Shown: in pieces, positions 3,657-64,000 of the stretch
Numbering within the stretch: the first letter of the stretch is position 1
How the letters are laid out: every line of letters starts with the position of its first letter
DNA from: Linnemannia hyalina
Taxonomy: Eukaryota > Mortierellomycota > Mortierellomycetes > Mortierellales > Mortierellaceae
Assembly: GCA_019671135.1 (NCBI GenBank)
Contig: JAHRHY010000008.1
Coordinates: 2,170,001 to 2,234,000 of the forward strand
Direction of reading: 5' to 3'
DNA length: 64,000 nucleotides
The notes under the pieces: generated by a model
The model's database searches: none
What the model was told of the DNA's origin: nothing
Seen by the model: the letters and a program-made list of their open reading frames with translations, nothing else
Program-made: the position numbers and the translations under genes

Positions 3657-6600
3657 ATGGCACAGATCAATTACTCTCGCGATCCTCGGCTCAAGCCTGC
3701 CCCTGTCGTTGTTCTGGTGGATTCTGACGACGAGGACAACGCGCCTGTGCTTAGGAAATCTGTTACCTCGAACGAGGTCATCAATATCGACTCCCAGAGC
3801 GACACCGACGATGATGGAGTTAGTTTCGCACCAGGAGAAGTTTACAAGCCGAAAGAAGAGGCCGAGTCGGGCGGATATGTCAATACAGAGGATCACGAGG
3901 ATCAGGAGATTATGAATATGGACGAGTCTTACGACTTTGGTGAGGACGTCATGCTGGACGACGACTTTGAGGAGGATATGATGCCAGACGAAGGTGACGA
4001 AGGACGCGAGCAGGAATATGAATACGAGGCTGATTATCTTTTGGGTGGCTCCATGGAGGTATACATTCTGCACGTGAAATGGGGTTACATGGTATATGTG
4101 TCACCATCGTCTTACGCGCCTTCCGCAATTCCATCTCACCTAACCAAGCTTGAAATTGGTCGCCCGTCTTCGAAAAAAATATTATAGGTGTCACAGGATA
4201 CGACAAGAGTAGCTCCGAAGAGTATAGACTATATTGACCTCATGAACAAGTCATACCATGAATCCAAGAGCCGGAACTTGGTAAGATCCTGAGGTTGCCT
4301 CATTTGCGTACGTGAATTTCGAACCGAAAGACAACAACTTCAAAGCTGGTCATAACCATTCTTATCCTCTCTTTTCACTCATAGTCCTATCAATATCGTC
4401 TGGAAAACAGGAGTACCCAAGAGGAATTCGGCCCGAATGCACCTAAGCGGGTTCGAATGGAGGTGCCGGATGATGTCACAAGCGTGGAGATGGAGCGAAT
4501 AGTCAGTCAAGTAGCCATGTACACAAACAGAGGAAAGTCAGTGGACTGGACAGCTGTGGCAAGGTATGGTTAGTCCTGCGATATTGCACTCACTGGAGTT
4601 GTTCCTGGGCATATGAATTACGGATTCTAAAAACTAGCGCTAATTATTTTCAGGATATACTCAGTGACGTGTTTCTATACACGGGCTACAGGCGGCACGA
4701 GACGGCTTATCAGGAGGCATTTGAAACAGCCATTAGACTGTATCCCATGACGCCTCGGCAAGCCATTCCAAGCTGGGTACCGATCCAGAGCAAGGTGTCC
4801 GTGCGGTCACTTTTGGGGCTGCGAGAGCTTGGTCATCTCAGGGTACCTCTCATCAAGGTTTGTTGTCACCGGTGGTTTAACCTCGTTCATGTTTACAGAC
4901 AAGTTCCCCGGTCATAAATTTGTTTGACTAACATGTGTACCTACTTTCCATTATACAGGATCATCTGCTACTTCACACTACAAGAGCATATCGGCCGGTC
5001 ACTAGCTTCAACTTTTCCAGTGGGAGTGTCGTGGACATGGCCCTGAAACCCTCAACGTGAGTTTTCTTTTTTCTTTTTTTTTTTTTGGTGCGCTGACAAC
5101 TTTTGGAAAGTCTTTCAAAATCACTTGGTATGGGGATATTAACTAGGCTTGTCATTGATCTGACATCTATCAGTATGAAGCTGGCGATTGCGAATGTGGC
5201 GACTCAGGACAGTTACAACAGGAAAGGAAACCTGTTTCACTGCGATCTTAACAATGGGATCTCAAAGAAGCTTGAGGGACACACGCGATTCGATCAACGG
5301 TTCAATCAAGGTATGCGTCTTATTTTAGGTGTGCCATGGACATTTACTTGCCTTGTTCATATTTCCATCACGACGCGTGTTCTACCCATTGCAATCGAAC
5401 TTTCTCGTATTTTCAACGTTGTAGAGATGGAGGCTACTGTCAACGACATCAAGCTGTCCAATTCAGAAAGGTTTTTTATCTCAGGATCTGATGATCACAA
5501 GACCATGGTGAGCATTTGACGGCTTTCAGATGTCTTCTAAGGTTACAATATCCTCTCTGATAAAACCAGCTCTAACGCCAGCCTCAAAACTTGCTCATCC
5601 ATAGATCTGGCACGCGGAGACTGGTGCCCTGATGAACACGATTGGTGAGCCAGATTTTGTTGCGCATGGTCCAATTGAACAATTACGATATTGTTTGGTT
5701 TATACTAAAAAGCGACACTAACAGTCAGAGTGTTATCCGGACCATTCGCGGTATTATAGGTGAACACACCTCAAGAGTGACTCGCGTGGCCATTCAGGAA
5801 TATGCGAAGGATAACCAAGACGTGTTCGCTACAGGGTCAGCCGACGGGTATGTCGTTTTCTGAGGTCGCTGATAGTTAGCTTTTGCTTTCTTTGCATGCA
5901 TAAGTAAGCGCATGATAATGAATCCCACCTCTCTCGCTTATATATCCCCGCCAATAGGACGATCAAAATATATGCTCTAGACGACGAAGGTCTGATCAAG
6001 GTCGGGAATGGGACGTTGGCTCGCAGTGGTGGGAGACGGTGCATTTCGAGCATCTGCTTTGGCTTCGACCACTATTGGGACGTAGTGGCAGTAGGATTCG
6101 AGGGAGCGGACGGGCAGAAGGATGGGGCCGGCGGGAAGCAAGGCCTCATTTCTATATATGATGCCAACCAGATGCAAAAGTCTCTCGATGGTGATCTTGG
6201 CTACAGGCGTGGTGCATTCTGTGCTACGGAGAAAAGTGTGTCTTGCCTGTCATTTTCACCTTCAGGGGACCAACTGGTCTGCGGAACCTCAGGACGGGCC
6301 AGCGCGGAGGATGACGAGAAGGGAGATGAGGTGCTTCGCGTTCTAGACCTTAAAACGGCCAAGGTTGTACAGTCGGCCATCTCTGGACACGAGGACGTGA
6401 ACTTGGTCGACTTCAGTCCCTGTCAGAGGTACTTGATCAGCGGGTCCAACACCAACGAGACGGCGGTCTTTGACCGCCGCCATATGAAGCGCGTGCTGCA
6501 TCGACTGAAGCATTCGGAGAGGAACGATGACCAAGGCCATGCAGGCATCACCTCTGCCCTGTGGTGGCAGACCAGCTGTGGCACCAGTCAGTCGATGCTG

Positions 6601-21667: not shown

Positions 21668-23594
21668 AATCTTGCGGGGGCTCTGTTGAGGTCAGGTGCA
21701 GCAATTAAGCAGCCTTTTTTAAATGTGGCTTGTCTTCGCCCCACTTTCCCGATATCGTTCACGGCGCTGCTTTCTAACGCCTCTATATGTAAAGTTGGTT
21801 TAATGCTTTGATTAGCATGGTGTGTACTTGAATGACATGGCGCTAATGATATGAAGAGTGCGTGAGGAGGTCCAACCTGAAAACGGTCGCGATGCATAAC
21901 TATCGCGTGGGGGTTGCAACACCAGTCCGGCTACACCCAACGCATCTGAGGCGATGACGAGCGACAGTGTCGATCGTGCGATGCAGCAGCTTCACGCGAT
22001 AACGAGGCTAGGCTGATGGCCTCTTGAACAGCTCATACATCAAATCCATTTGCTTGCACCCTAACAGCAGCGCTCCATGGAAACATCGCAACGGAAATGT
22101 TACTTCAGAAGTAGTGTTTATTGTCTAGTTGGTACTGTACTCGAAAGGTGCTCTTTCGCTTATGAAAACGGATGATGAAAACAGGGGGTGAAGGAGACGC
22201 GGCTAGTCGTTCCGCCCTGTTTAGTATTGTATTCTACATCAATGGATGATGGTCGGTGGTGTTGCTGTTGCGCTGCTACAGTTTTTTAGCATCTGTGGCT
22301 GAGGGCCAGAGGGTGCAGGTGCTGGGCGTCGATCAAGGTGACCTTGTTGGCAAAGACGGCAGAGGTGTCGTCCTCAAAGCACTTTGTTGATCACGGCATC
22401 GATGACACCGAGGTAGTGGTAGTACTGCAGATGACGTGCGGAAAGCCGCCGTGGGCCAAAGCAAGGCACAGGTGATCGTACAACGGCGGCGACAATGGGG
22501 TCTTCAGCTCAAGGCGCTGCAGCAGTGGACAGCGCGCTATTGTCAACGTGGCTGCGCTGTCATCCTAACGCGCCATGGACCTGCCTGATCCTCAGTGACT
22601 GAGCATAACAGCATTATCCACCCTGAGTGTGTCTATTGTTGTCATCAACTGTCCATGATGATGCCTAAATGATGACGGAAAAAGGGGTGTAATGGTCAGC
22701 AAAACTGTCAAAGGAGACGCACAACAGCACAATCCCTCCGCGAACCCCATACCCCAGACACGACTTGTTAGCCCTGCAAGGTGCTGCCCACTAGCTCTCA
22801 CCCCCCGTGAGAAAGAGCCACCCAGTTTCCGCACAGCAGCGAATGCCACACGAGAGCCAGATCCTAGAATGGGCAGCATGAACAGCCCCAGTGCCTGCAT
22901 CAGGTTTCGGTCTCCAAGAGAGCAAAAGCCGGAGGACCAGAAGCCATTCCCCTGCATTGCCACGACGAAGCTGCGAACCGCTTTTAAGGAACTACAACAA
23001 CCGCCGATCATGTCCACAGACGTTAGGAGCAAGGAACTCACAAGGCCAGATCCTCCGGTCCGGAATGCGGAGCAGGGCATGCAATGAAGGTGCGATCCAT
23101 GAAGGAAAGGGCCGTCATTACACAAGCAGCGCAACCTCGGCAATGCCAATGCTTTCGCAGAGGCCAGCCTTGGAAGCACCGAATCCTGGCCAAACCCGTG
23201 CCCCGAAAGGGTGGATATCAGACTTACAGGCCTCCCACGAGAGAGAAGACCCACCTCGGTACCCGTGTTTCACGCCATGCATCCGCCTTTATCTATAGCC
23301 CGCTGCCATTACCTTGAAAAGCAATACTGCCGAATGTTCTCTGCGAAAGAGGCTATGAAGGAGGAAAGAGTGGTGGTTGTTGGATTGAATGTGAAGTTGG
23401 ACTGGTTATGTAGTTGGATTGGAGTGATTGGATTGGATTGGATTCGGAGAGAAGGTGAAGAAAAACGGTTACAGGACAATGGACGCCATAATTACGTCAC
23501 CGAAGTGTGTAATTGTAGCGCCCCCTATAACCATAACTCGATCCATGTATTTGCTTATACACATATGGATCTAATATACTAAAATAGGAAATAA
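21668..23594. other. Non-coding or decayed accessory DNA
   Basis: A minus-strand frame of 220 aa (22592-23254) and overlapping plus-strand frames exist, but none resembles a known family and none has a supporting promoter or intron pattern. A GATTGG-type short repeat lies near 23410-23450. Nothing else could be supported. Confidence 0.4.
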
Positions 23595-50389: not shown

Positions 50390-53357
50390 AGGAACTCCTG
50401 CATGATCTGTTGAAAAACCATGTCCTCGGAAAGGTCGTCGGCATGATTCATGTCATTGAGTTCCAGAAGCGTGGACTCCCCATGCACACATTCTGCTCAT
50501 CATGAGCCCCGAGCACAAGCCTGGATTGCCTGAGGACTACGACAAATACATTTCTGCCGAGATTCCTGACCCTGCAACTCATCCGGCCGCCTATGAGACT
50601 GTTGTGAAATCCATGATCCATGGCCCATGTGGACCGGCAAACAGGAACTCTCCATGCATGGAGAACGGCGTGTGTACCAAAGGCTATCCCAAGCCCTTCC
50701 TCGCAACCACCACAAACGGACCAAATGGATATCCGCAGTACCGGCGCCGCATGGATGGAAGGACAGTCAGGATCGATGGCCGGGGAGATTTCGAGATTGA
50801 CAACCGTTGGGTCGTTCCGCACAACCCTTATCTGGCTGCAAAGTATGGTGCCCATATCAATGTCGAGAGCTGCACCTCTTCCACTGCGGTCAAGTATCTT
50901 TACAAGTACGTCTACAAGGGTCATGATCGAGCCACTGTTGTGGTTCAACAGCCGGCACAAGACGGAGCTCAAGCCGGAGCCGGAGATCTACCTGTGCCAG
51001 AAGTCAACGAGATCATTGATTTCATCGACGGTCGCTATGTCTCTGCCTCCGAGTCTTCTTGGCGCATATTCGGTTTCCGCCTACACAGTGCCTATCCATC
51101 CGTCACCAGGTTGCATTTGCATCTTCCCGGCCAGTTCATGCACGCCTTCCGCTCGGACGAACCCATCGCCGATGTCCTAGAGAGAGCCGCACTGGAGCGC
51201 AGTACGCTGACTGCATTCTTCGACTATAACCGCGACCATCCTGACGAACCGCCATCAAAGTACCACGACTTTCCTCAAACCCACGTTTACCTCAAGAGGG
51301 AAAAGCGATGGAAGCTCAGAGAGAGAGGATGTACAGTCGGCCGACTCTTTTTTGTGCATGATACCGCAGGCGATCTGTTTTATTTGCGGTTGCTACTACT
51401 CTCGGTGCCAAGTCCTATATCGTTTGAGGGCCTAAGAACAGTCGAAAACGAGGTCCACCCCACGTTCAAGGCCGCCTGCATCGCCCTTGGCATGCTTCAA
51501 GATGATCGCGAGTGGGAGAACTGTCTTCGGGATGCCGCAGTCAGCCAAACGGGATACCAACTCCGCTCCCTTTTTGCAAAGATTCTTGCCTTTTGCAACC
51601 CGACAAATCCTGCTCAGCTTTGGACCACCTTTCGCGATGCACTGTCTGATGATCTCCGTCCAAGGGAACGTGACGCTACCAGCCTTGAGCAGCGACAATC
51701 CTTTGCAGACCAGCGTGCAAATGCTGCCTTGATCCACTTACAAGTTCTCTTGAGGAACCTCGGCAAGACTCTCCACGACTACGAAGGCATGCCCGAGCCC
51801 GTCATACTGGAGCAGCATGGTCCCAACGTAAATGCATTTATTGCAGACGAGTTGAATTACCCTTTGCCCAGCGCAGAAGATTTCGCCATGATGGAGCAGT
51901 CACTCAACGCGAATCAGAGGGAAGCATACGACCGAATCAAGCACTCCTATGAGATGAACTCTTCCGAGGCGTACTTCATCGATGGTCCTGCAGGTACAGG
52001 AAAGACCTTCCTGTACTCCCTAATCCTGTCTATGGTCCGGTCGAATCGCGATATCGCTCTTGCCGTTGCTGGATCTGGAATCGCCACATTACTCCTACAA
52101 GGCGGAAGAACCGCTCACTCGCGCTTTAAGATTCCCGTCCCTACCCACGAGGATAGCGTTTGTTCAGTCAACCACAGGTCAGAAATTGCCAATCTTCTCA
52201 TCCGGGCCAAGATCGTTGTCTGGGACGAGGCTCCGATGACGCATCGGCATATCTTTGAGGCTGTAGATCGCACTCTCAAAGACCTGATGAAGACTGTGGA
52301 CCCTGCGAACGAACATCGTCCCTTTGGAGGAAAGCTCATGGTCTTTGGCGGCGACTTCAGGCAGATTCCTCCAGTCGTTAAGCAAGGCCGCAGAGAGGAA
52401 ACCATTGGAGCCTGCTTTAAACGATCTCCACTCTGGGACCACATTCAACACCTTCATCTTTCCGTCAACATGCGCCTCCTCAGAAATGCCGACGCTCCCG
52501 ACATCGAGGAACAGACCGGGTTTGCAAACTGGCTTCTTCAAGTCGGAGAAGGTACTGTTCCTGGCCCGTCTCCAGACCACAGAATCTCCACCACCATCAC
52601 ACTTCCACCCCAGATGGTGATGCCAGCCAATGCCAACATTGGCGATCTCATTGCCAAGGTCTACCCTGATCTCCAGCACAATATTGGCAATGCCCAGTAT
52701 CTCAATCAGCGCGCAGTGCTCTGTCCAACAAACGACAACGTCGATGAAGTCAACAACCACATCATGTCAGCCATACAAGGGGAATCAAGAGAGTTTCTCT
52801 CGCAGGACTCCATCATCGACAAAGAAGACGATAGGGTGGACGCTCTGTTTCCTATCGAGTTTCTGAACAGCCTCAAGTCGTCTTCGCTCCCTCCTCACTG
52901 CCTGAGATTGACCGTGGGTTGTCCTGTCATACTCCTTCGAAACCTCATGCCACAGGAAGGACTTTGCAATGGCACGCGACTCATATGTACATCGCTCTCA
53001 CGGTACGTCTTGGGAGCCACTATCATTACAGGAACACATGCCGGCAATCACGTATTCCTTTCCCGCATCCCGATCTGCCCTTCTGACCTCGATATGCCGT
53101 TCAAGTTCCGACGACTCCAGTTCCCTATCCGACCCGCCTTTGCAATGACGATCAACAAGTCCCAAGGTCAGACTTTAGACACCGTTGGTATCTATCTCAA
53201 GAAGCCGGTATTCGCCCATGGCCAACTGTACGTTGCCCTATCTCGAGTGACGAACAAGAACAACGTGCATGTGTTGATTGAGAGGGAGGGTCCCGATACA
53301 CCATATGGCTGTACAACAAATGTTGTTTACCCAGAGATTCTTGCCCTGAGTGACTAA
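50390..53357 (+). pseudogene. Helitron B Rep-helicase (N-terminally deleted, frameshifted at the HUH motif)
   Basis: From 50502 a 951-aa frame is open to 53357. Upstream coding (GKVVGMIHVIEFQKRGLP, then HAHILLI) changes frame by one base at about 50478, exactly between GLP and HAH of the HUH nuclease motif. Rep C-terminal signatures follow: IHGPCGPANRNSPCMENG and IDNRWVVPHNPYLAAKYGAH. The PIF1-family helicase has Walker A FIDGPAGTGKTFLYS, VVWDEAPMTH, VFGGDFRQIPPVV, FAMTINKSQGQTLDTVG and LYVALSRVTN. The helicase half appears intact. Rep lacks most of its N-terminal half, so nicking activity is probably lost and movement would need helper Rep. Confidence 0.85.
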
Positions 53358-53508
53358 AAAAAAAATGACATAAGAAAAAAAAAAAGGAGGGTAGGGATCA
53401 AGGGAGACAGTGACAGACAGAAATAAATATTACCACATCCATTTCGCTTTCTTTTTTTTTTTTTTTCACCCAACACCTCCGCGAGCGAAGCCGCGGGTAC
53501 TATTCTAG

Positions 53509-54633
53509 TATTAAGTAAAGAAAATAAAGAGACATTAGGATGCGCATTTATGAAGCAGTGCCAAAACATGTATTTAGTCTGGCTTACCCGAACAGCTTTC
53601 ATCATAGCACTGTCGTCAAAATCCACCTCGGGGAGCTCGGCAGTCGATTTTGCGAGTGCACGCAGAAGCTTCTTGGAGAACGCTTCTTCCATCCTCCTTG
53701 TTGACATTGATGGTGCAAACACCCCAATGATAGCCATGGCGTCTGCAACCTCCGTCTTCCTGATTTCGTTGTTAACCAATGACTCAATACACGCTCGCTG
53801 GAATTCTTGAAACCGACATGCAACACAAGTACCGTCCACCATCCACTCGCAAGCCCGATGAGAAGCCTTTTCAACGATGCCTAACAGAGTCTCACGCTCA
53901 GCATTGTCGAGTACAGGCTCTTCTGCTTCAACAGCAGCATGATCTGACTCTGCTGCTTCAACAACGGAATGCTCCGACTCTACTGATGGTGTTGTTGACT
54001 GTGCTGGCGATGACGTAGGTTGAAGTGTTCGGCCATGAGGCATAGTTAAAGGAGATGTGGATGGTCCTGATGCTTGGCGCTGTTGATTCTGAACCACCGC
54101 TATTATGCACACATATTGTATCCGAATAATCATTTAGCAAACTAAGCTGGTTTTGGTTCTACAAAAATATCATTGCCATTAAATACAAAACCAACAATCT
54201 TACCGACATAGTTTTTAATGTCAGAGGTGTGGAGGGATGACACAGCTTGTTCTTGTTGAGAGACATTTGGCAACAGAGCCTTGACATGGTCCCGCTATGT
54301 GCAGTTTTAAATAAATAAAAAATAGACAAAAGCGTTCGAGGTTAAGGTTTGTTGACAACATACAAATCGACAGCTCTCCACATAATTACTTACTACTTCG
54401 AACACTTCGTCAACAATGGCCTCTAGATCCTTTCTCGTGGTTTTCTTGAGATATCTCGCTTGTCGACGTTTCTGGGCACTACTGTGCCTTTCGAGGTACG
54501 GCAATACAGTTCCCGTCCAGGACCCAATCAACTGTTCCTTTTCTCGATTATCGTCCAAAGCTGTCAAGAACGCCCGAAACGATATCTCATTCGCCGGAGT
54601 CTTGTTACAAAACTCCTTGTAATTTTCGAACAT
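53509..54633 (-). pseudogene. Minus-strand gene of unknown function, cut by Helitron B
   Basis: Exons 54633-54394, 54294-54204 and 54099 downward splice in frame with consensus GTAAGT and GTAAGA donors. They give MFENYKEFCNKTPANEIS, a basic coiled region (SSAQKRRQARYLKKTTRK), a Ser/Thr/Pro linker, then ECVLD-like acidic and Cys-containing segments (MVDGTCVACRFQEFQRAC) up to DFDDSAMMKAVR. A donor GTAAGC at about 53591 suggests that Helitron B (ending 53508) sits in the next intron. The 3' exons, if they survive, would lie left of the Helitron chain. No domain is recognised. If the intron still splices around at least 4 kb, the gene could be alive, but I find no partner exon. Confidence 0.5.
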
Positions 54634-55706
54634 CGCAATGAAAACGAGGATTGGGCTCTCCTAAGTACAGAGTAAATCCTCAGCGAAAAATGGAAAAGGC
54701 GCAGCATTAGTTCCAAAGTCAATTGGAGCAGCAAAAAAGTAGACAAGATGTCTGATGATCGATCAAGTGAAGGCACGCTGAATTAGACCGAAAGAAACAC
54801 TATCGGAACCCAGTAATCATCAGTGCCATTCCCCCTTGTCATTGGAAAGGAATGGCACTCAATTAGTGGACCCGCTTAACACATTCTCGGGTCGAAAATG
54901 TGGATAGCCATTCACGAAGTTGTCCTCATGTGACTGACCAAGAGAGATGAGGGCCCCGTCCAATCGAATCATTGCCAATAACAGGAGGAAAGAGAAGGAA
55001 CGCCGTCTTTACACAAAAAGAAGCACTATTTGATTCCTGGGCCAACACCAACATCCACTCCTTGCCTATCACGAAGGGAAGATTGGCTGCGAATACCGCA
55101 TGGCGAGGACTGGCTTCACACACCCGCGATCCTCTTCGCAGATGTGCATATCCTTTCTCAAAGCTTATCTCATGTGTCTGGCCAGGAGAGATGAGAGCCT
55201 CGTCGTCCAGAGTCTGTCATTGGTTTGTTTAAAATTCAGACACAATTGAGGTAATTACCTACCAACAGTTAGATGAAACGTCTTCTGCGAGAGAGAGAGA
55301 GAGAAAGAGAGAGATATGAAAAGGAAGGCGAGAGGGATGAAAAGGAAGGCGAGAGGGATGAAAAGGAAGGCGAGAGGGATGAAAAGGAAGGCGAGAGGGA
55401 TGAAAAGGAAGGCGAGAGGGATGAGAGATCAAATATTAAAAAGAAACGTCATCAGAGATTAAAAACGCCACAATTCTCTTATTGGCTGAAAGAATCACTG
55501 GGATCTTTCCTAATATGGATCGAAATTAACTGTCAATTGACACCAAGGCTTTCTAGCTCTGGACTGCTCTCCATATAAGTGACAATATGAAATGACACTC
55601 AAAGCTGTTTCTTCCTCACCATTTTCCTACTCTTACTACTTCAGCAAACCGACTATCCTCATCAACATTCGTTTCTTTCGACCCCAAAAGCACAAGCCCC
55701 AACGCC
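54634..55706. other. Spacer with a duplicated ~55-nt motif
   Basis: Segments at about 54924-54978 and 55164-55222 are similar (TCATGTGACTGACCAAGAGA against TCATGTGTCTGGCCAGGAGA, both followed by GATGAG). A short inverted repeat AGTGCCATTCC/GGAATGGCACT lies at 54821-54859. Short frames here are not convincing genes. Confidence 0.45.
55318..55422 (+). repeat. 21-bp minisatellite, five units
   Basis: Five exact units of GAAAAGGAAGGCGAGAGGGA plus T; the frame reads EKEGERD repeatedly. Because the units are contiguous without spacers, it is not a CRISPR array. Confidence 0.9.
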
Positions 55707-56797
55707 ATGGGGCTCTTCGACAGGTACCCTTTCATTCGCAAGAAGGGCTACAACCCTACTGTTCTATACCAATCAGTCCTAGCCTCCCTGACAACAGGCA
55801 CACGTCGCTTTGATGTGATGGCCGACTGCTTTCCCGTCATTCAACGGACCTACTCGAACCATAACTTGCCTCAGGATGTAGCGCACAAATTTTTGGAGAA
55901 CGACATTAAACGATCTGGCAGCCCACTCAACATGCATCTACATCGACGGCGGCCAGGCAGTAGAGAAAGAGAACACAACCGAGGCACGAGTCGAAGCCCG
56001 ACACAAGACCCTGGACCACACAGAATAGAGCATCGAGGTTTTCAAGGAAAGACTGAATGACAATTTGAGGGTCAGGAAATGACACTTCACTGACGTCAAG
56101 GCTGGACTCAAGTCGTCCTTTCACTGGTCGTTGAGGAGTCGCCAGGAGTTCGCCAGCTACATGCGGCACCGCGGTTGGACTGTTGACGTTTGCGAGACGG
56201 AGGCGGATCTTGCAATGGCCCAGGATGCTCAGCCTGACGACATCATCATCTCGAAGGACAGTGATATGATGGCGTATCAATCGATCAAGACCTTGTGACA
56301 CCCAGTCTCTAATAACCTTATCCTCGTTTACAAGCTTCCCGATGTCCTCGCGACCCTTGGGATCACTCGGACACAGCTGACGGCTCTGGCTGTGGTTTCG
56401 AGGAATGACTATCACAAGAATATCTACTCGCTTGGACCAGCAGCCAATTTCAGCATCATCAAGGAGATCGGAATGGCGGCGATTTTTGGGCATTCTCTGC
56501 CAAATGCTATTTTACAAATCGAGTTCTCATTTTGATTACCTCTTCTTTTTTAATAGACACCCGAGAGATTGTCGCTGCGTACCTCACCCACGGTCAAGTC
56601 AAGGTGAAAAACACCAAAGAGGAGACATTCGGGAACTCTATCCGGGTGTTCATTCTTTTGCAACAAGATCGTGTCGAGCCTTTGGCCCAAGAGTCACGAG
56701 CCCAGCAACTCTTCCGTGTATTGCAGGACAAGTTCAAGGAGCTTTGCATCAAGCATGAGACTCTGAAAAATATTCGAGCAGCAGGAGCCAAGGAGAG
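55707..56797 (+). pseudogene. XPG/FEN1-like nuclease domain, N-terminal part of a Fanzor fusion
   Basis: It starts MGLFDRYPFIRKKGYNP, as in XPG-N proteins, and continues to LPQDVAHKFLENDIKR. After a frameshift at about 55934 come IYIDGGQAVEKENTTEAR and the XPG-I active-site region: CETEADLAMAQDAQPDD and IIISKDSDMMAYQSIK (acidic residues that bind metal in FEN1/XPG), then LPDVLATLGITRTQLTALA (helix-hairpin region). Later segments are EIVAAYLTHGQVKVKNTKEE and QQLFRVLQDKFKELCIKHE, with a normal GTAATT donor at 56798. Stops at 56026 (TAG), 56080 (TGA) and 56296 (TGA) are all explicable by single transitions. The family cuts branched DNA. This copy is dead. Confidence 0.75.
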
Positions 56798-56897
56798 GTA
56801 ATTATACCATTCATTATTGAAGGGCTTTGTACTTTGTGGAGAATTATTTGCGAGGTGCATTTCTCACCATTTCATTTGGTTGGTTTTTAATAAATAG

Positions 56898-59305
56898 AAC
56901 CAAGGACGACGTTGTACGGTTGCCATCGCCAAAGACTCACAACCGATACAGAACAGTCGAGTCACCCAAGGTTGTCTCCAAGGCCAACACTACTGCTACT
57001 TCATCGCCACAATCCACTCTGGCTCCCGGACCTTCACAGCAGAGCTCCTCTTTGCCCTCTAACCCGAATGCAGACGGGCATCCTCCATTGGCCAGGACGC
57101 GAATTCCGAGGAATCGAGGTCGGTTTTGCGTTCAAAGAGAGAACGCGCAAGATTGTCCATGGCCCACCTCCCAAGGCCAAGCAGTTCAAGCTCAAGTTCT
57201 ACCGGGAGCCGGCGCAGACCAACAGTGTTTTGATCAAAAAGTCCAAACCGAAGGGCGACAGAGTCTCATCTGGATTTCAGAAGAAATCACTTGCAGATCT
57301 CGACAAGAATGGTCTCGTGCGGTCGATGAACTGGCACCACCCAACGTATTCTTTGGAGATTGGCACAGTGCGTGCGAACGTCAGACGCGCAGTGATGGAC
57401 GGAGTTGCCGGTACTGACGCTCTTACCAAGGAGCGTCAGGAGGTAGTCGATTGTTTCCAGGCGGCCCCACGGCTGGCTGCGGGCGTGAAGCGTGAGGCTC
57501 AGCGTCTTATTGACCACTTCGTGGAAATGCTGAGGGATCGCATGGACAAAGTGGAGGAGGAGCGAAGGATTATATTGGAATTAATGACGCCACCCCAAAC
57601 GATGACCGAATTATATCGACTTCAGTGCAGGAAGGACTCTATCACGGAGGCGGAGCGGGGGATACTGTTGTCGATTTGCGAGTGGACAAGCCTGCGGATG
57701 TCGATAAGGATGAGGAGGATGCCGGCGGCATCAAGGAGAACGACGACTCCGATGTCGCGAACAGGCAGGACAAGGAGTTCCGCTTCTTAATCTCTTTCCT
57801 GACGTATCTGTATTCAGGAAATTACCCGAAGGAGAACTCCAAGGCAGGCGGCGTTGCTAATCAGCTTGTTGTCTGGTTGGTGAAGGACGGGATACATGAT
57901 CCAGTTCGGGCGCGCAGGGAACTTCAGGAAACCGCACCATTCACACCGACGTATTTGGTCCGATCTGTGTCTGGTCAGCTGGCTGTCGAGCTGAGACGAG
58001 TGTATGGGCATAGGAGCCGTGATCTCCACGATAAGGTATGGGCTGAAGTATCTTTGGCTAATTCAGGTGTGCTGTTATGCTTTCATCGCACAAAAAAAAT
58101 ATCGTGAATATTATTTAATTTATTTTAGGATTAATCTATTCTCACAGGGCTGTGTGGCCTTATTCTCACAGGGTAATATCACATCCATCAATGTAAAGTC
58201 CAAAAACGCAATATGAAGTAGCCCTTTCACTTTAGATACTTATTGTGCCTCATAAAGAGGTGCATCGATTGGTATAAGAATGGACATGATTGGGGTTCTG
58301 GTTCAATGAAATATTGGCATCAAAGTCTTTGTCAATTATAGGACCATTAGATGAAGTTAAATTTGGTCGAAGAAAGCAGGAGTATGAAGGTGGTAGGCCA
58401 TGGCAACAATAGTTAGGATGGCTTCAGAGATTCTTGAAGTGATTGCGAGCAGTTTGAGAAAAAAAAGTAGAGAAACTGTTTTTGCACAACGATCATGTCA
58501 CCTTCTTCATGCTAAACCCATGTAAATATTTAGGACCCTGTGAGAATAAGACTTCACAGGGCTGTCAGAATAACTTCATCCTTTATTATATTATTTTCTT
58601 TTCTTGCATAGCTCAAGGTCATGAAGGACAAGGGCATAGTAAGAGGCGATGTCGACATTCAAATTCGACCACATGTTTCCGCCGTCGAGAACTTTCTCTA
58701 CTTGAACAAACTCACGGGAAACAGCCGTCGGATTGAGCCCCTTACTTCCTCACAGCAACCTTCCATACATTCTCGGAGAGGGAGATTCCAGCCTTTTCTG
58801 GAAGCGTACATCGCTGAAGGAAAGATTGGTGCGGTTGGGCGAGTTGGATAACTCGACCATCACCTCCGTGAACGACCTTGACACATGGATAGCAGGAAAA
58901 GAGCCCGGTTTTATCATCAAGAACTTTGTCGCCGACGTCGCCCCTCAGGGTCTCACAAGTCGACAGCAGAAGCAAGCAGATCATCGATCTGCGGTCAAGC
59001 TATGGTCCTTGGATCAGACCCGGAGCCACTTGGTGGATGTCCAGAATGAATGGCTCGACCCCATTACCTATGCCACGAAGGGATATGTCCTCCGAGGCTC
59101 TCTAAAGACCGACGGGTTCAGGATACAGTTGTTGGCATTCAAGCTTCGAGAGCTTCAGGATGTTCGATTTGGCCGTATCGCAGAGGACAGGCTGCCCTCA
59201 AGATTGACTTCGACTGTTGGCGGAATCGATTACTTCCTGCCCGAGATCCAGAATGTCATTACCAGCAAGGACGACGACGCCAAATATTGGCCAGGAGTTC
59301 AACCC
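56898..59305 (+). pseudogene. Middle region of the XPG-Fanzor fusion
   Basis: It splices in frame from the XPG part (AG|AACCAAGG, restoring Arg). A Ser/Pro linker is followed by KQFKLKFYREPAQTNSVLIK, LVRSMNWHHPTYSLEIGTVR, FLTYLYSGNYPKENSKAGG, GDVDIQIRPHVSAVENFLYL and ITYATKGYVLRGSLKTDG. The pieces keep one order and strand but change frame near 57100, 57565, 58735 and 59300. An intron (donor 58036 GTATGG, acceptor about 58611 CATAG) contains a MITE-like insertion. There is no stop-promoter boundary between the XPG and RuvC parts, which supports a single ancestral protein. By position it should hold the Fanzor recognition and wedge-type domains (inference). Confidence 0.6.
58138..58566. repeat. 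MITE-like element with 15-bp inverted repeats inside the intron
   Basis: CTTATTCTCACAGGG (58159-58173) is the exact reverse complement of CCCTGTGAGAATAAG (58536-58550). Outside both, a direct repeat TCACAGGGCTGT occurs (about 58142 and 58554). The 360-nt interior has no ORF. Confidence 0.7.
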
Positions 59306-60880
59306 TAAGAGATCAAGGCATTGACTTTGGACGGCGGAAGGCGTGTGTCATTGGCGCCTATGCGGATATTCCGGACGACTCGCTCAGGACTGGAAACGGC
59401 AAGGAGGTCGACAGGTAACTTCAAGCATAGAAGGGATTGTTGCTACCTCTGTGGAACCGACAGCAACGTCGACATCCTCAATCTCTCTTCCTACCCTGTA
59501 ATAGGAGCAGAGCAAGAGAGAAGAGGCAAGGGTGAGGACAAGGAAGGAAGACAAGAGGCAAGGAGAATAGCAAGGGAAAGAGACAAGAGGGTGTAGGGAC
59601 AAGAGGAAAGGGCAAGAAGGAATGAGGTTTATTGTACAGGAGGGACAGGGTATTTATACGTCTATGGTATGAGGGATGATGGTGAGGTAATAATAAGCAG
59701 GGGTAGTGTGTAAGACAGACACACAAGATATTAACAAGGAAGTAAGGAACAAGGCAGCCAAAAGCAGGAGGCAATCTACAATCCTGTTACATACCCCCAT
59801 CTCGGTTTCAACTCAAGATCAACATACAACAACCTCGCCTCTGGTGTCGACAAGGACGGTGTTTCACAATCTGGCGGTGAAACAAAAGGCGGTGTATCAA
59901 CCAACATTCCGCTTCCGTCGGTGGCTGGAGGGCGAGAAGCAGGCGTTGCTGGATGTGGGTGAGGAACACCGAACGATTGCAGGAATCGAGACTGAACTTC
60001 CACCTTTGAAAGGCGAGGGGGCGAGTGTGATCAACTACACTGCAGAGCTGAGGCGAATCGAGGAGAGACTATTGGAGTTCTATGCGGGCCCAGACCAGCT
60101 GTACAAACGCCACAAGTGGGACATGAAGCGTGCCCGTCAGTATGAGTACCAATTGCTTGCCAACCGCCTCCTTGGTATCGTTGGAGGAAGTATTGGGCGT
60201 CGATATGATCCAGTAAACCCTGTCTTGATTGGAGTAGGACTGGGCAAGTTCTCGATTAGGAGTGGACTCTCCTCTCTTGACTCCACTTTCCTATCTTTTT
60301 TTGTGCAGAAGGTAACCATTGATTCAAGAATATCATTAAGGATTGACACCTGCAAATACTTGTCATCCGTAAAACAAACAAAAAATAGTAAATATGATTG
60401 CCGGTTTCCTTCAAATTAGCACGGTCGTTGGGTTACCTGGTCGTTGGACTCAATGGGTATTATACGAGCAAGAAATGTCCTCACTGTCGGCTATTCGTCG
60501 CCCAGGTCACCCTCCGCCGTTTCTTTTGCCCAACCTGCCACGTTTATCACCACCGTGACGTTATGGCGGCTGAGAACATGGCCAACCTTGTGCGAGGATA
60601 TCTTGAGAAGCAGCAGCGTCCAGAGCACCTCCAGCCTGTGGCTCCGGACGGATCTCTTCCTTGGGTGGCTAGTGCCGGCGCAGGATCAGAACACTCTCGA
60701 ACACAACCCCCGGAAGCGGCAGCAGCGGGAGCACTGGCACAATGAGTCGATCGCCAGGACATCAAAAACGGCCTGCCTCTACCTCAAGCACCACGGACGG
60801 AACTCAAGGCCGACCAAAGAGGTCAGCCATTGCCTCTAGTTCAAGCCCGGTGCGCGGTGGAAAGGGTGCGCGGAAGTAGT
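59306..60880 (+). pseudogene. Fanzor/TnpB-like RuvC nuclease and zinc ribbon, C-terminal part of the fusion
   Basis: Fanzors are eukaryotic TnpB relatives, RNA-guided DNA nucleases. RuvC-I: QGIDFGRRKACVIGAYADI, with the catalytic Asp at nt 59323-59325. After a 430-nt interruption come FHNLAVKQKAVYQPTFRFRR and the helical segment WDMKRARQYEYQLLANRL. The RuvC-II strand is NPVLIGVGLGKFS (about 60220). An intron-like gap (60300-60415) precedes ARSLGYLVVGLNGYYTSK, then zinc ribbon CPHC (60476) and CPTC (60527) and RuvC-III HHRDVMAAENMANLVRGYL. A basic Ser-rich tail ends at about 60880 in another frame. Where family members usually have Glu before YYTSK, this copy has Gly. Several frame changes make it a pseudogene. 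Confidence 0.75.
59414..59847. other. 430-nt interruption between RuvC-I and the rest of the Fanzor region
   Basis: It begins with a donor-like GTAACT after GTCGACAG and is followed by GTCGACA again at 59848. It includes a purine-rich low-complexity stretch (59505-59630). It may be an enlarged intron or an insertion with 7-nt direct repeats; I cannot decide. Confidence 0.4.
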
Positions 60881-61364
60881 CTACTGTCCCCATCTATCTT
60901 GGGGTGCCATTAGGCGAATATGCGACACACACCTATCTCTTGATGGTGTCCATCTACTATTAGACTGTACCACTCACTGCAAGATTCAGAAGAGTAGTTC
61001 TTGTATGTGATCATCTAAGGCAATTATACCCTCAACTGTATCTTTGAGGCGAAATACAGGTGTTTTGTTACATGGATCTAGCACGACTTCACATTTTATC
61101 ATGATATTGCACTCTATTCAGAATGGCAGGCTTTGCACATCGAAGAATTCTAGATCGCACACCATGTCCTCAGTATGGAACTGCTTTCAGTTTGTCTGTA
61201 GAAAGTGCATTGATATAGTGGTTATTAATAAAACCTGTTTGTTCCGTGCTAAACCCATGTAAAAATTTACATGGAAATCATTCGCCATTACCTGCGATCC
61301 ATTTAATTGATCAAGCGGATTTAGGCATTTCAATTCCGGCGATGATCCAGTGTCGGAACTTGCA
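60881..61364. other. Spacer right of the Fanzor region
   Basis: AT-rich. The segment GCTAAACCCATGTAAA near 61247 is shared with the MITE interior at 58510. A perfect short palindrome CCATGTAAAAATTTACATGG lies at about 61254-61273. No gene. Confidence 0.4.
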
Positions 61365-61506
61365 AAAATGACAAGTGGTGATGAATGGGTTATGAATCAG
61401 GAGAATGAATGACAGGAATCTGGGGACCGGTTGGAACATTGGTGAATTAGCATTTCAAAAAAAACGTCGAAATCACGTTTTGGTTGATCACTTGATAGGA
61501 GCACTG
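61365..61506 (-). repeat. DNA-transposon terminal repeat, copy 2 (CAGTGCTCC end)
   Basis: On the minus strand it begins CAGTGCTCC next to TA and matches 40267-40415 over about 140 nt (shared GATTTCGAC, TTTTGAAATGCT, CCCCAGATTCCTGTCATTCA). It is the right-hand end of an element extending leftward, so the Fanzor region could be its cargo. The matching left end was not found. Confidence 0.65.
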
Positions 61507-61885
61507 TATTTTTTTTTTTTTTTTTTAGGAGGTGGGGGAATGATTGAGGTGTGGCTGGGAACTTGAAGAAGAGGTGCTTGTGGCAGCCAAACGTTCATGG
61601 AGACGTTGCCTTTTGATCTCCTCCCTGCAGGAGAATTCCAGGCCGCGTTGTCAATGCTTCGTTCACATTGGTACAAAAAGATGTGGTGGCTAGGCAGTGG
61701 CGGCAATGCCTTAGGTTAGCAGTCATATTCTTTAGTAGATAGTATTAGTAGTGCGCCGAGCCCTCTTGTCTGCTCTTTGTCCTTTTACACATCACTTCTT
61801 GGACGAGAGCAGTATTGACAAGAGTTTCGCTGGCGCGCTGCAGTGTATCGTTTCGTGTGATTCTCTTAGGACGCTATTATCACTT

Positions 61886-61927
61886 CCCCCCCCCTCCAAC
61901 CTACAACCCCCCTTCCCCCCCCCCCCC
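61886..61927 (+). repeat. Poly(C)-rich tract
   Basis: Runs of 9-13 C with short interruptions. Confidence 0.85.
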
Positions 61928-61993
61928 GTACCAATTGAGGACTTAACAGCGGTCCTACAACTCTGGCCGTCGACCCTCTCCCCTGAGTAACAA

Positions 61994-62046
61994 GGCGTTC
62001 AGCCATAACCCAACGGATGATAGCTTCGGGCCATTGCCTGAGCATT
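61994..62046 (-). rRNA. 53-nt fragment of 28S rRNA gene
   Basis: Antisense GGCGTTCAGCCATAACCCAA and on to CGGGCCATTGCCTG, the same LSU segment as 37846-37890 but slightly closer to the conserved sequence. It is flanked by unrelated DNA and is too short to be functional. Confidence 0.75.
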
Positions 62047-62785
62047 AAATCTTGCCCAACTTTACTAATATGACACATTTCACATCCACTGGCCGCAGGT
62101 CGTTCAGGCATCGCCAAGATAAAAAAAAGATACTGTGACAAGCCTCAGAACCTGAAATGGCTCACTGACCACCATGCATATTGCTCGCCAACAAGGGCCA
62201 GTCGCCATTCTCTTTGTCTTGGGTTTTCTGCATTCAAAAGGAGACTTTGATATAGTTGATCACTGGCCCGCAGCCGCCAGGCCTCTTGAACTTCATTTTG
62301 TGGCGCAACACGTAAAAGATTTTGTACGTGAAATTGATCTCGTACGTCCACGTTTGAGTTTGCTTTTCCGCAGAATGAGACCCAGTGGACACGTTAGAGT
62401 TGAAAGTCTGCCTTTCTTTTAACTCTCACCACTCTTCATTCATTCCTTTTCATCCTTTCCTTCTGTTCATTCCTTCTATTCCTTTCCTTCATTTCATTCC
62501 TCCTATTCCTTTCCTTCATTTCCTCCATTTCCTTTCATTCTTTCACCCTTTCATCCCTTTATCCTTTTATCTTTTTATCTTTTTATCTTTTTATCTTTTT
62601 ATCTTTTTATCCTTTCATCCTTTCATCCTTTCATTCTTTTCATTTCATCCTTTCCTTTCATCCTTTCCTTTCATCCCTTTCTTCTGTTCATTCCTTCTAT
62701 TCATTCCTTCTATTCCTTTCCTTCCTTTCATTCTTTTCCTTTCCTTCCGTTCATTCGTCATTGTTCCCCCCACCCTATTCAAAAA
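62047..62785 (+). promoter_or_regulatory. Pyrimidine-rich repeat tract and promoter of the HSP70-like gene
   Basis: From about 62400 to 62780 the strand is almost pure CT with TTCATTCC-type units and five (CTTTTTAT) units at about 62571-62610. It leads directly to the start at 62786, matching the promoter style of other genes here. Short ORFs at 62145-62422 are not supported. Confidence 0.5.
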
Positions 62786-64000
62786 ATGAAAAGGTCGAAC
62801 AAGAAAGGATTGTTCTCACTTCTGATTACTTTGATCGTTGTGATCTTCCTGTCCTCTGCAACCGTGTCTGCTGCTCGACCAGAACGTGTTCGTACGACGC
62901 TTGCAATTGGTAAGAACAAATTCGCCCTTTCCCTTCCCTCTTCGAACCGCACTGCAGAATGCTCGGAATAACCGTCCATTTTATGTTCATTTTCTTCTCA
63001 GAGGTTGGATCTAGTGTCACTCGTTTGAGTGTCGACGTTGGTGATAACGGTAAACCGAAAATAATATCAATCGGTCCAGGAACACGTTCCACGGCCGGAC
63101 CATTGGAGTCCAACTGGACAACCGAAGGATTCCTGTTGATTAAGGATGGCACAGACAAAGTGCGTTATGTGCACCCATCCAACACACTTTTCAACCTTGA
63201 CCATCCAATCGCGTTGCGTTCACTTCATCATTACGGTATCAGGCCCAACATTACCGGACACCAGGCATTCACCCTCATCGACATCACAGCCAAGTATCTG
63301 CAGGAATTAACAACATCCGCTGAATTGATCCTCGGTCATAGTGTCAACTTTGTTGGTATCCTCTCGCCAGATGGACAAAGCCTACGGACCACGACAAAGG
63401 AAATCATCGGTGATGGGTTCAGAGGGAACTACACCTTGCTTGAGAGAGTTTATGTTGGTAGATACACTGAACGGATAGTGATTGAGTTGAGGGAGGTGAT
63501 GGAGAAAGCCTTAAATGCTGCAGGACTGCAAGCCAAAAAATCTCTTCCCACGTGTACAGGAAAGCCTCTGCCGCCATCGGTTTCTTTGATCAAGGCATGG
63601 AGTACAGTCGAAACGTTCTTGTCTATCGTCTCGGTGGCTCGACATTCGAGGTCTCAGTCCATGAAATTGACGACGATTCCAGTTACGCCATGTCTTCCGT
63701 CTATGATCAACACCTGGGCGGAAACGATTTCAATCAACGCGTCGTCGACCATTTACTCCTGGCCCACAAGAACAAGACCGGTCATGACCTCTCCAGTGAC
63801 GACAAGTTTCTCCTTCGACTGGGAAACGAAGTCGAAAAGGCCAAGCGAATGCTCTCTGTCCACGACTGTGTTCGGATCGAAATCGAGTCCCTCCACCCTG
63901 GGGTTCAAAGTCTCTCCGAAAAGTTGACTCGGTCTCAATTCGAGGATCTCAATATGGATCTCTTTACCAAGACCATCACGGCGATCGATCAGGCTATCAA
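62786..64000 (+). CDS. Divergent ER-type HSP70-like protein, runs off window
   Basis: Exon 1 (62786-62909) encodes a signal peptide (KGLFSLLITLIVVIFLSSA, then VSAARPE). A GTAAGA intron leads to exon 2 at 63002, which continues past the window end. Alignment by eye to BiP/HSP70: the phosphate-1 motif, normally GIDLGTT, reads AIEVGSS; phosphate-2, normally DLGGGTFDVS, reads RLGGSTFEVSV; then YDQHLGGNDFNQRVVDH, NEVEKAKRMLS, RIEIESL and LTRSQFEDLNMDLF are well conserved. The frame breaks at an A-run (63535-63540); one extra A would restore it, so there is either a recent frameshift or a sequence error. The loss of catalytic Asp and Thr suggests a pseudo-ATPase or specialised lumenal chaperone. 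Confidence 0.75.

Follow-up and report, generated by a model that had tools for sequence, protein, structure and literature searches.

The remnant gene of the window

The window, a 64,000-nucleotide stretch of the Linnemannia hyalina genome (family Mortierellaceae; 51.5 Mb in 50 contigs) corresponding to C49:2170001-2234000, hosts at 55707-60876, on the plus strand, the defunct remains of a transposon gene with five exons, in which an XPG/FEN1-type nuclease is followed by a Fanzor nuclease. The copy is regarded as dead because of frameshifts, stops, two repeat insertions, the change of the RuvC glutamate to glycine and the loss of the right end, and the term fossil, used for it in a first-pass annotation, is correct. 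The same annotation reported ordered coding on one strand. Translated searches (tblastn) with intact relatives detect collinear pieces along the whole interval, in the order XPG N-region, XPG I-region, linker, Fanzor REC/WED, RuvC-I, RuvC helices, zinc ribbon and RuvC-III.

Exon 1 opens with the ATG at 55707. Its first part (55707..55943, frame 3, MGLFDRYPF...) encodes the XPG N-region MGLFDRYPFIRKKGYNP, located by tblastn, as were all other coding pieces, with P0001 (84% identity, residues 1-79) and P0004. Past a frameshift at ~55940 the exon continues in frame 1 (55933..56472) with the XPG I-region (EADLA...ISKDSDM) and three in-frame stops; read through one stop, this frame scores 33.7 bits with Pfam PF00867, against a cut-off of 24.9. 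Exon 2 (56556..56798, frame 3), delimited by the intron positions of the L038 and L039 models described below, is followed by exon 3 (56896..58038), which encodes the linker and the first part of the Fanzor REC domain and is spread over three frames by shifts at ~57130 and ~57687. A 456-bp repeat (58127..58582) sits inside intron 3; six more copies, 95-97% identical, were listed by a DNA search of the same genome. The first part of exon 4 (58612..59415) carries the WED domain with its TDG motif (GSLKTDGFRIQ) and RuvC-I (LTLDGG), both checked as motifs, and includes frameshifts at ~58780 and ~59340 and one stop. Exon 4 is split by a 297-bp repeat (59496..59792) found in many copies elsewhere (97-100%), and its second part (59775..60314, frame 3) encodes the RuvC helices and the old RuvC-II strand (IGVGLG). 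Exon 5 (60419..60715, frame 2) includes an alternative-glutamate site, occupied here by glycine (GLNGYYTS), the zinc ribbon CPHC/CPTC (TNB domain, PF07282, 60398-60745, E 1.1e-11) and RuvC-III (HRDVMAAENM). The C-terminal tail (60745..60876, frame 1) was identified with P0004.

The XPG-N and XPG-I signatures and the zinc ribbon had been recognized in the first-pass annotation; other details of that reading are to be revised. GIDFG, proposed as RuvC-I, was rejected, being out-of-frame with respect to the LTLDGG of relatives, which lies in frame 2 and is cut by the shift at ~59340. The canonical glutamate of the RuvC-II reported there is absent, and the family features instead the alternative glutamate placed before the zinc ribbon. 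Splice compatibility, stated there for the joins, does not hold for all of them: the exon-1 donor of relatives was not found in the window copy, and several frameshifts and the two insertions interrupt the coding pieces.

On the left, a 5' leader (55466..55706, plus strand) extends from the edge of family homology, as DNA matches to the C17, C4 and C22 copies begin at 55465-55468. The left terminal repeat is degenerate: the best match, at 55454, has 7/16 mismatches, and a match at 55399 is equally good. On the right, an unrelated repeat (60876..61992; copies on C9 and C44, 96%) is found in place of the element end, and a motif search did not detect the right-end motif with its conserved noncoding stretch at the right end of this copy. 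The C22 and C33 copies are homologous up to ~60883; the C23 copy, which is a longer duplicate, is the only one to continue, and it also shares flanking sequence from 53509 onward.

Two nuclease parts in one gene

Intact copies are predicted to encode a single protein, with an N-terminal XPG/FEN1 nuclease joined through a linker to a complete Fanzor1-like domain. L038, on C4, features five exons and four GT-AG introns of 88-109 nt, and its open frame of 1335 aa is identical to the L. hyalina NCBI model KI688_002751. L039, on C13, encodes 1348 aa; its junctions match those of L038 (phases 1, 2, 0, 0) in spite of only 52% identity. In L040, another member of the window's subfamily, introns 1 and 2 are as in L038, and the exon 3 frame is broken. 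L065, which together with L041 represents a second subfamily, encodes 1351 aa and differs in the first intron (phases 0, 2, 0, 0), and the order of the parts is the same in L111, of a third subfamily. The first-pass annotation had supposed one polypeptide with two nuclease folds, a view that separate genes in all intact relatives would have contradicted. The opposite was found, and a full-length predicted model of one protein matches FEN1/EXO1 and Fanzor structures alike.

Both parts occur in 45 of the 58 proteins analysed (56 from searches, plus two models made here), in seven genera of Mortierellaceae (Linnemannia, Haplosporangium, Podila, Mortierella, Dissophora, Entomortierella and Benniella). 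The Fanzor part is alone in 13/58, five of which are labelled partial; the XPG part is alone in none of the 58, in a search unable to return much shorter proteins. A third protein search (alignment A5) added only two proteins and did not reach beyond Mortierellaceae, so that absence from other groups is not shown, and a pattern scan of further genome contigs gave 29 matches, no relative among them. In databases the proteins are mostly named hypothetical, some being called Cas12f1-like TNB domain-containing, XPG-I domain-containing or PiggyBac transposable element-derived. In two NCBI models, P0014 and P0038, the Fanzor part is joined to unrelated sequence (PF20147 in P0038).

In the L. hyalina genome, a RuvC part is found downstream of XPG_I, on the same strand and within 3.5 kb, at 26 of 32 XPG_I places (32 of 48 XPG_I rows and 48 of 74 RuvC rows were used, short and distant pieces being left out), and chance neighbourhood of two genes is ruled out by this linkage. 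It is highly improbable that two neighbouring genes were joined merely by gene prediction. The NCBI models are computed, and the Fanzor-only proteins would fit that account; against it, intact copies lack stops between the parts, exon 3 spans the passage from linker to Fanzor region, the positions and phases of four introns agree between the two copies 52% identical, and the same order recurs in three diverged subfamilies.

Between the window and L065 subfamilies, homology is found for the XPG parts (E 3.7e-8) and for the Fanzor parts (E 4.4e-18), which points to a fusion older than the split of the two. Trees drawn from each part correlate (Spearman 0.886, 210 pairs, 21 of the 58 proteins) and share 8/18 splits, against at most two with shuffled labels; on raw identities the same mirror test is weaker (Spearman 0.43, 151 pairs).

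The predicted model shows a Fanzor1 fold across most of the C-terminal ~780 aa, with REC, WED, RuvC and TNB domains all recognizable. According to PMC3627910, Fanzor1 proteins fit the motif D-X(125,275)-[TS][TS]XX-C4 zinc-X(5,50)-RD. The TS..C4..RD part was found in 32/58 proteins, many of the others being partial or mis-spliced models, and 27 of the 32 have an aspartate within range (spacing 245 in P0001). PMC10711439 places an alternative glutamate six residues ahead of the zinc ribbon in Fanzor1, and describes a TDG motif in the Fanzor WED domain and a nearly Fanzor-exclusive DPG at RuvC-I. The family lacks the canonical RuvC-II glutamate and uses the alternative one, immediately before the zinc ribbon (E in 31 of 36 readable proteins, K in three, G in two). 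The TDG pattern is present in 43/58 proteins, as TNG in three of them. Among 46 proteins readable at RuvC-I, DPG is found in 11, of the L041/L065 subfamily, and also in L111, while the window's subfamily has DGG (12), DAG (10), DLG (8), DVG (4) or DMG (1). A profile of exon 4 gave five weak matches to PDB sequences, none being TnpB, Fanzor or Cas12. The Fanzor half is likely an RNA-guided DNA cutter.

The XPG half has a FEN1-type fold, to which 43 of the 50 listed structure matches of the full-length model belong, and seven active-site acids are kept in nearly every sequence of the window's subfamily (alignment A2). Pfam XPG_I scores remain below the cut-off for P0001, P0004, P0026, P0028 and L039 (18.5-23.5 bits); four other members carry PF00867 in database annotation. 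Fold and acids are those of FEN1, EXO1 and XPG (the Rad2 family), from which the half differs for being transposon-borne and joined to a Fanzor.

We regard the family as a Fanzor1-like nuclease with a built-in second nuclease, and otherwise the same machine. Like SpuFz, GtFz and PpFz (PMC3627910, PMC10432273, PMC11423790), it shows the Fanzor1 fold, the WED TDG, the alternative glutamate and the D...[TS][TS]xxC4...RD series, and travels in DNA transposons of eukaryotes whose right end includes a noncoding stretch. Unlike these, the fusion is ~1,300 aa long, known Fanzors being of 400-700 aa (PMC10432273), includes the XPG nuclease and, in the window's subfamily, lacks DPG at RuvC-I. A scan of viral contigs returned four TnpBs (L107-L110) with the alternative glutamate, in frames of 398-429 aa; they resemble the family in a profile match (probability 97.3, E 1.7e-11, 64 columns of RuvC-II/III and zinc ribbon), and differ in that none has an XPG part. 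No report of a Fanzor-XPG fusion was found in the literature searched, though Jiang et al. 2023, which deals with Fanzors of eukaryotes and viruses, may mention one; in the same searches Fanzor and Mortierella were not found together, and TnpB and XPG only in a Cas12a paper.

Carrier transposons and their right ends

In the window's subfamily the gene lies between inverted repeats of ~17 bp, such as GGGTGCAGGACAATGGACGCC (left, C13) and GGCGCCCATTGTCCTGCAGCC (right, C48). With one mismatch or none, the pattern CAGGACAATGGRCGCC occurs 54 times in the genome; the reversed control never does. Three of five copies (C13, C22, C17) are flanked by exact 8-bp target duplications, mismatched pairings of flanks reaching at most 6/8. 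The C13 element measures ~4.8 kb, and the gene spans 641-5071 of L039, where other frames were listed for the plus strand only. MuDR-like elements of Rhizopus, Phycomyces and Mucor carry Fanzor1 (PMC3627910), and the two sets of elements are alike in having a Fanzor between inverted repeats, short target duplications and no transposase inside; they differ in the length of the duplication, 8 bp here and 9 bp in MuDR-like elements, and in the XPG fusion. As regards a possible Mutator-like (MULE) nature of the carrier of the window's subfamily, L075 has the same terminal repeats as that subfamily, a SWIM-finger frame scoring 19.3 bits against a Pfam cut-off of 19.6 and, on the other strand, an XPG-Fanzor remnant seen by eye.

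The L041 element is different, being 6.6 kb long and present in 12 copies at 99-100%. Its ends are TTATCCCC...AAGGGATA, the left found in 10/12 copies and the right in 12/12. The left palindrome folds as DNA (z -5.0), the right end not beyond chance (z -1.06), and a target duplication was sought in this element and none resolved. It holds an N-terminal piece of a piggyBac transposase (DDE_Tnp_1_7, PF13843, E 2e-20, a fragment). PF13843 matches at C33:1355940-1357862 run into L111. The ends of L065 resemble those of L041, and no piggyBac match was found near L065 on C50. Across the genome, a TNB follows 27 of 39 piggyBac places after 5.3-8.5 kb, in each case on the same strand and never on the opposite one; the count used 39 of 67 rows, omitting mostly second pieces of the same copy, plus at least one separate weak place. 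Eight of the 27 are in frames of at least 560 aa, six of these without stop inside the match.

Elements of this kind would allow that the XPG half acts on a transposition intermediate, such as flaps or hairpins made at the ends by piggyBac or another transposase, and not on a guided cut. The examined copies lie in DNA transposons with hairpin-capable ends, though support is uneven, and piggyBac frames precede some of the genes. But XPG is fused to the guided nuclease and not to a transposase, except for two predicted models that join all three, and it is common to elements with unrelated ends; we regard this account as rather improbable. The two models, P0045 (KI688_003228, 1418 aa) and P0046 (KI688_007005, 1479 aa), begin with a piggyBac transposase N-terminus, and may be either three-part proteins or prediction artefacts. 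In the C1 copy of L041 the RuvC part shifts frame near 4869-5148, where these sister models read on.

The window-subfamily copies share, despite diverged proteins, a noncoding stretch that follows the stop codon and extends to the right repeat. With up to three mismatches allowed, its core CTTCGGTGACGTAATTNNGGCGYCCATT is present 134 times (against 0 for the reversed control), and it is found ~1.0-1.5 kb downstream of 25 of 48 RuvC places, as counted from 35 listed motif places picked by eye near genes. The right end is predicted to form a UUCG-capped terminal hairpin containing the terminal repeat; RNA folding z values for six right ends of the subfamily are -2.5, -5.0, -4.9, -5.3, -0.03 and -7.0, and other subfamilies fold less clearly (0.02, -2.2, -2.0). 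In an upstream hairpin the five outer pairs form in 14/14 aligned sequences (register set by script), and pair 2 is TA in eight, GC in three and CG in three; the seven distinct arm pairs correspond to a shuffle share of 0.004. No Rfam match at gathering threshold was found within window positions 53000-64000. According to PMC10711439, Fanzor1 right-end RNAs have the repeat and the target duplication inside the scaffold, with reads extending ~15 nt beyond. The candidate stretch described here resembles them. By this analogy we infer that a right-end RNA would serve as guide scaffold and the flanking DNA as guide.

In L038 the predicted scaffold lies ~12-118 nt past the stop, within the gene's own 3' untranslated part, and therefore some nuclease must release the guide RNA. 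The XPG half could be a ribonuclease-like trimmer that matures the guide from the mRNA 3' end and does not act on the DNA break. XPG belongs to the PIN-like superfamily, which includes many ribonucleases. Profile and fold matches are however to the DNA-acting FEN1, EXO1 and Rad2, the aligned acids are those of the Rad2 family, and stand-alone Fanzors work without such a domain. A guide trimmer is hence unlikely, although no other alternative considered here is as probable.

Additional elements and frames were noted. From 23472 to ~25336 the window hosts a short element that shares the XPG-Fanzor terminal repeat and the right-end core, matched exactly at 23478-23505 on the minus strand; a relative, L076 (C1:239129-240602), looks like one long inverted repeat. 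In L065, an open frame at 1196-1684 resembles, by eye, a host-type membrane protein lying in an XPG-Fanzor element, and is possibly a captured gene. Upstream of the window copy, at 50460-53357 (plus strand), a 965-aa open frame has PIF1 helicase domains (E 3.3e-77) and is presumably the helicase part of a Helitron; it was rejected as a part of the unit, family homology beginning at ~55466. Frames at 62914-64000 (plus strand) resemble, by eye, an Hsp70-like protein.

Proposed role of the fusion

TnpB and Fanzor are described as single-nuclease enzymes, and the cut is left to host repair. The fusion likely cuts element-free sites under RNA guidance, and would then trim 5' ends in a way favouring copy-back of the element; we give this reading an even chance. 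The fusion protein would bind the right-end RNA, and a guide derived from flanking DNA would direct it to matching sites, either empty alleles or a site vacated by transposase excision. There the RuvC of the Fanzor half would cut, the XPG half would remove 5' flaps or resect 5' ends, and this processing, a role for the XPG part that the first-pass annotation had also suggested, would steer repair to homologous copying from the element-bearing template. What has been observed is that the spliced frame is open, that one predicted model contains the two folds, that the elements have transposon ends, and that a conserved noncoding right end has a predicted fold; in the window's subfamily catalytic residues are conserved in both halves.

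Several points weigh against the copy-back reading. The joins are predicted from sequence, and either DNA or RNA may be the substrate of the XPG part. Two of the five copies (C4, C48) lack the target duplication. On the piggyBac side the XPG linkage was read only in L041, L065 and L111, and among the 27 TNB-linked places only in L041 and L111. Concerning the right end, folding is at chance level for L098 (z -0.03) and L041 (z 0.02), and the terminal hairpin could be a mere effect of the inverted repeat. Of 24 right ends extracted, 14 were chosen by eye for the hairpin, the omitted ones being foldback and diverged, two of them gene-linked (L040, L097). The RNAalifold covariation term is unfavourable (+0.54), with 5/17 pairs changed on both sides, on a MAFFT alignment that misaligned hairpin 1.

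The XPG active site is a further point of this kind. In two other subfamilies one glutamate is, by eye, a glutamine (NQSD in L041, HQAD in L065, FQSD in L111), and to judge from these residues XPG activity may be low or absent there. An XPG half that is inert, and serves as a platform binding DNA or an R-loop, would fit the substitution; it is opposed by the seven acids kept in the window's subfamily and by a dN/dS of 0.14 for the XPG exon of the C4 and C13 copies, and we give it little credence. In that test dS is 2.3, close to saturation, and for RuvC exon 4 of the C4 and C13 copies dS is saturated and no ratio is obtainable. The recent C4-C17 pair shows one synonymous and six nonsynonymous changes. 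The exon-1 cuts used include one stop each in C17 and C44 and eight in C22, whose pairs carry little information.

A broader form of the copy-back reading, which we put forward more tentatively and lean against rather than towards, is that of a natural cut-and-resect enzyme: a guided nuclease equipped with its own 5' end-processor, the cut being at once recombinogenic, would provide fungal DNA transposons of several kinds with a homing machinery of their own. The fusion would be a natural counterpart to the idea of coupling a guided nuclease to an end-resecting enzyme, and would make the role of Fanzors for their transposons directly testable. If the reading is true, the family shows how the repair that follows a guided cut may come under the control of transposons.
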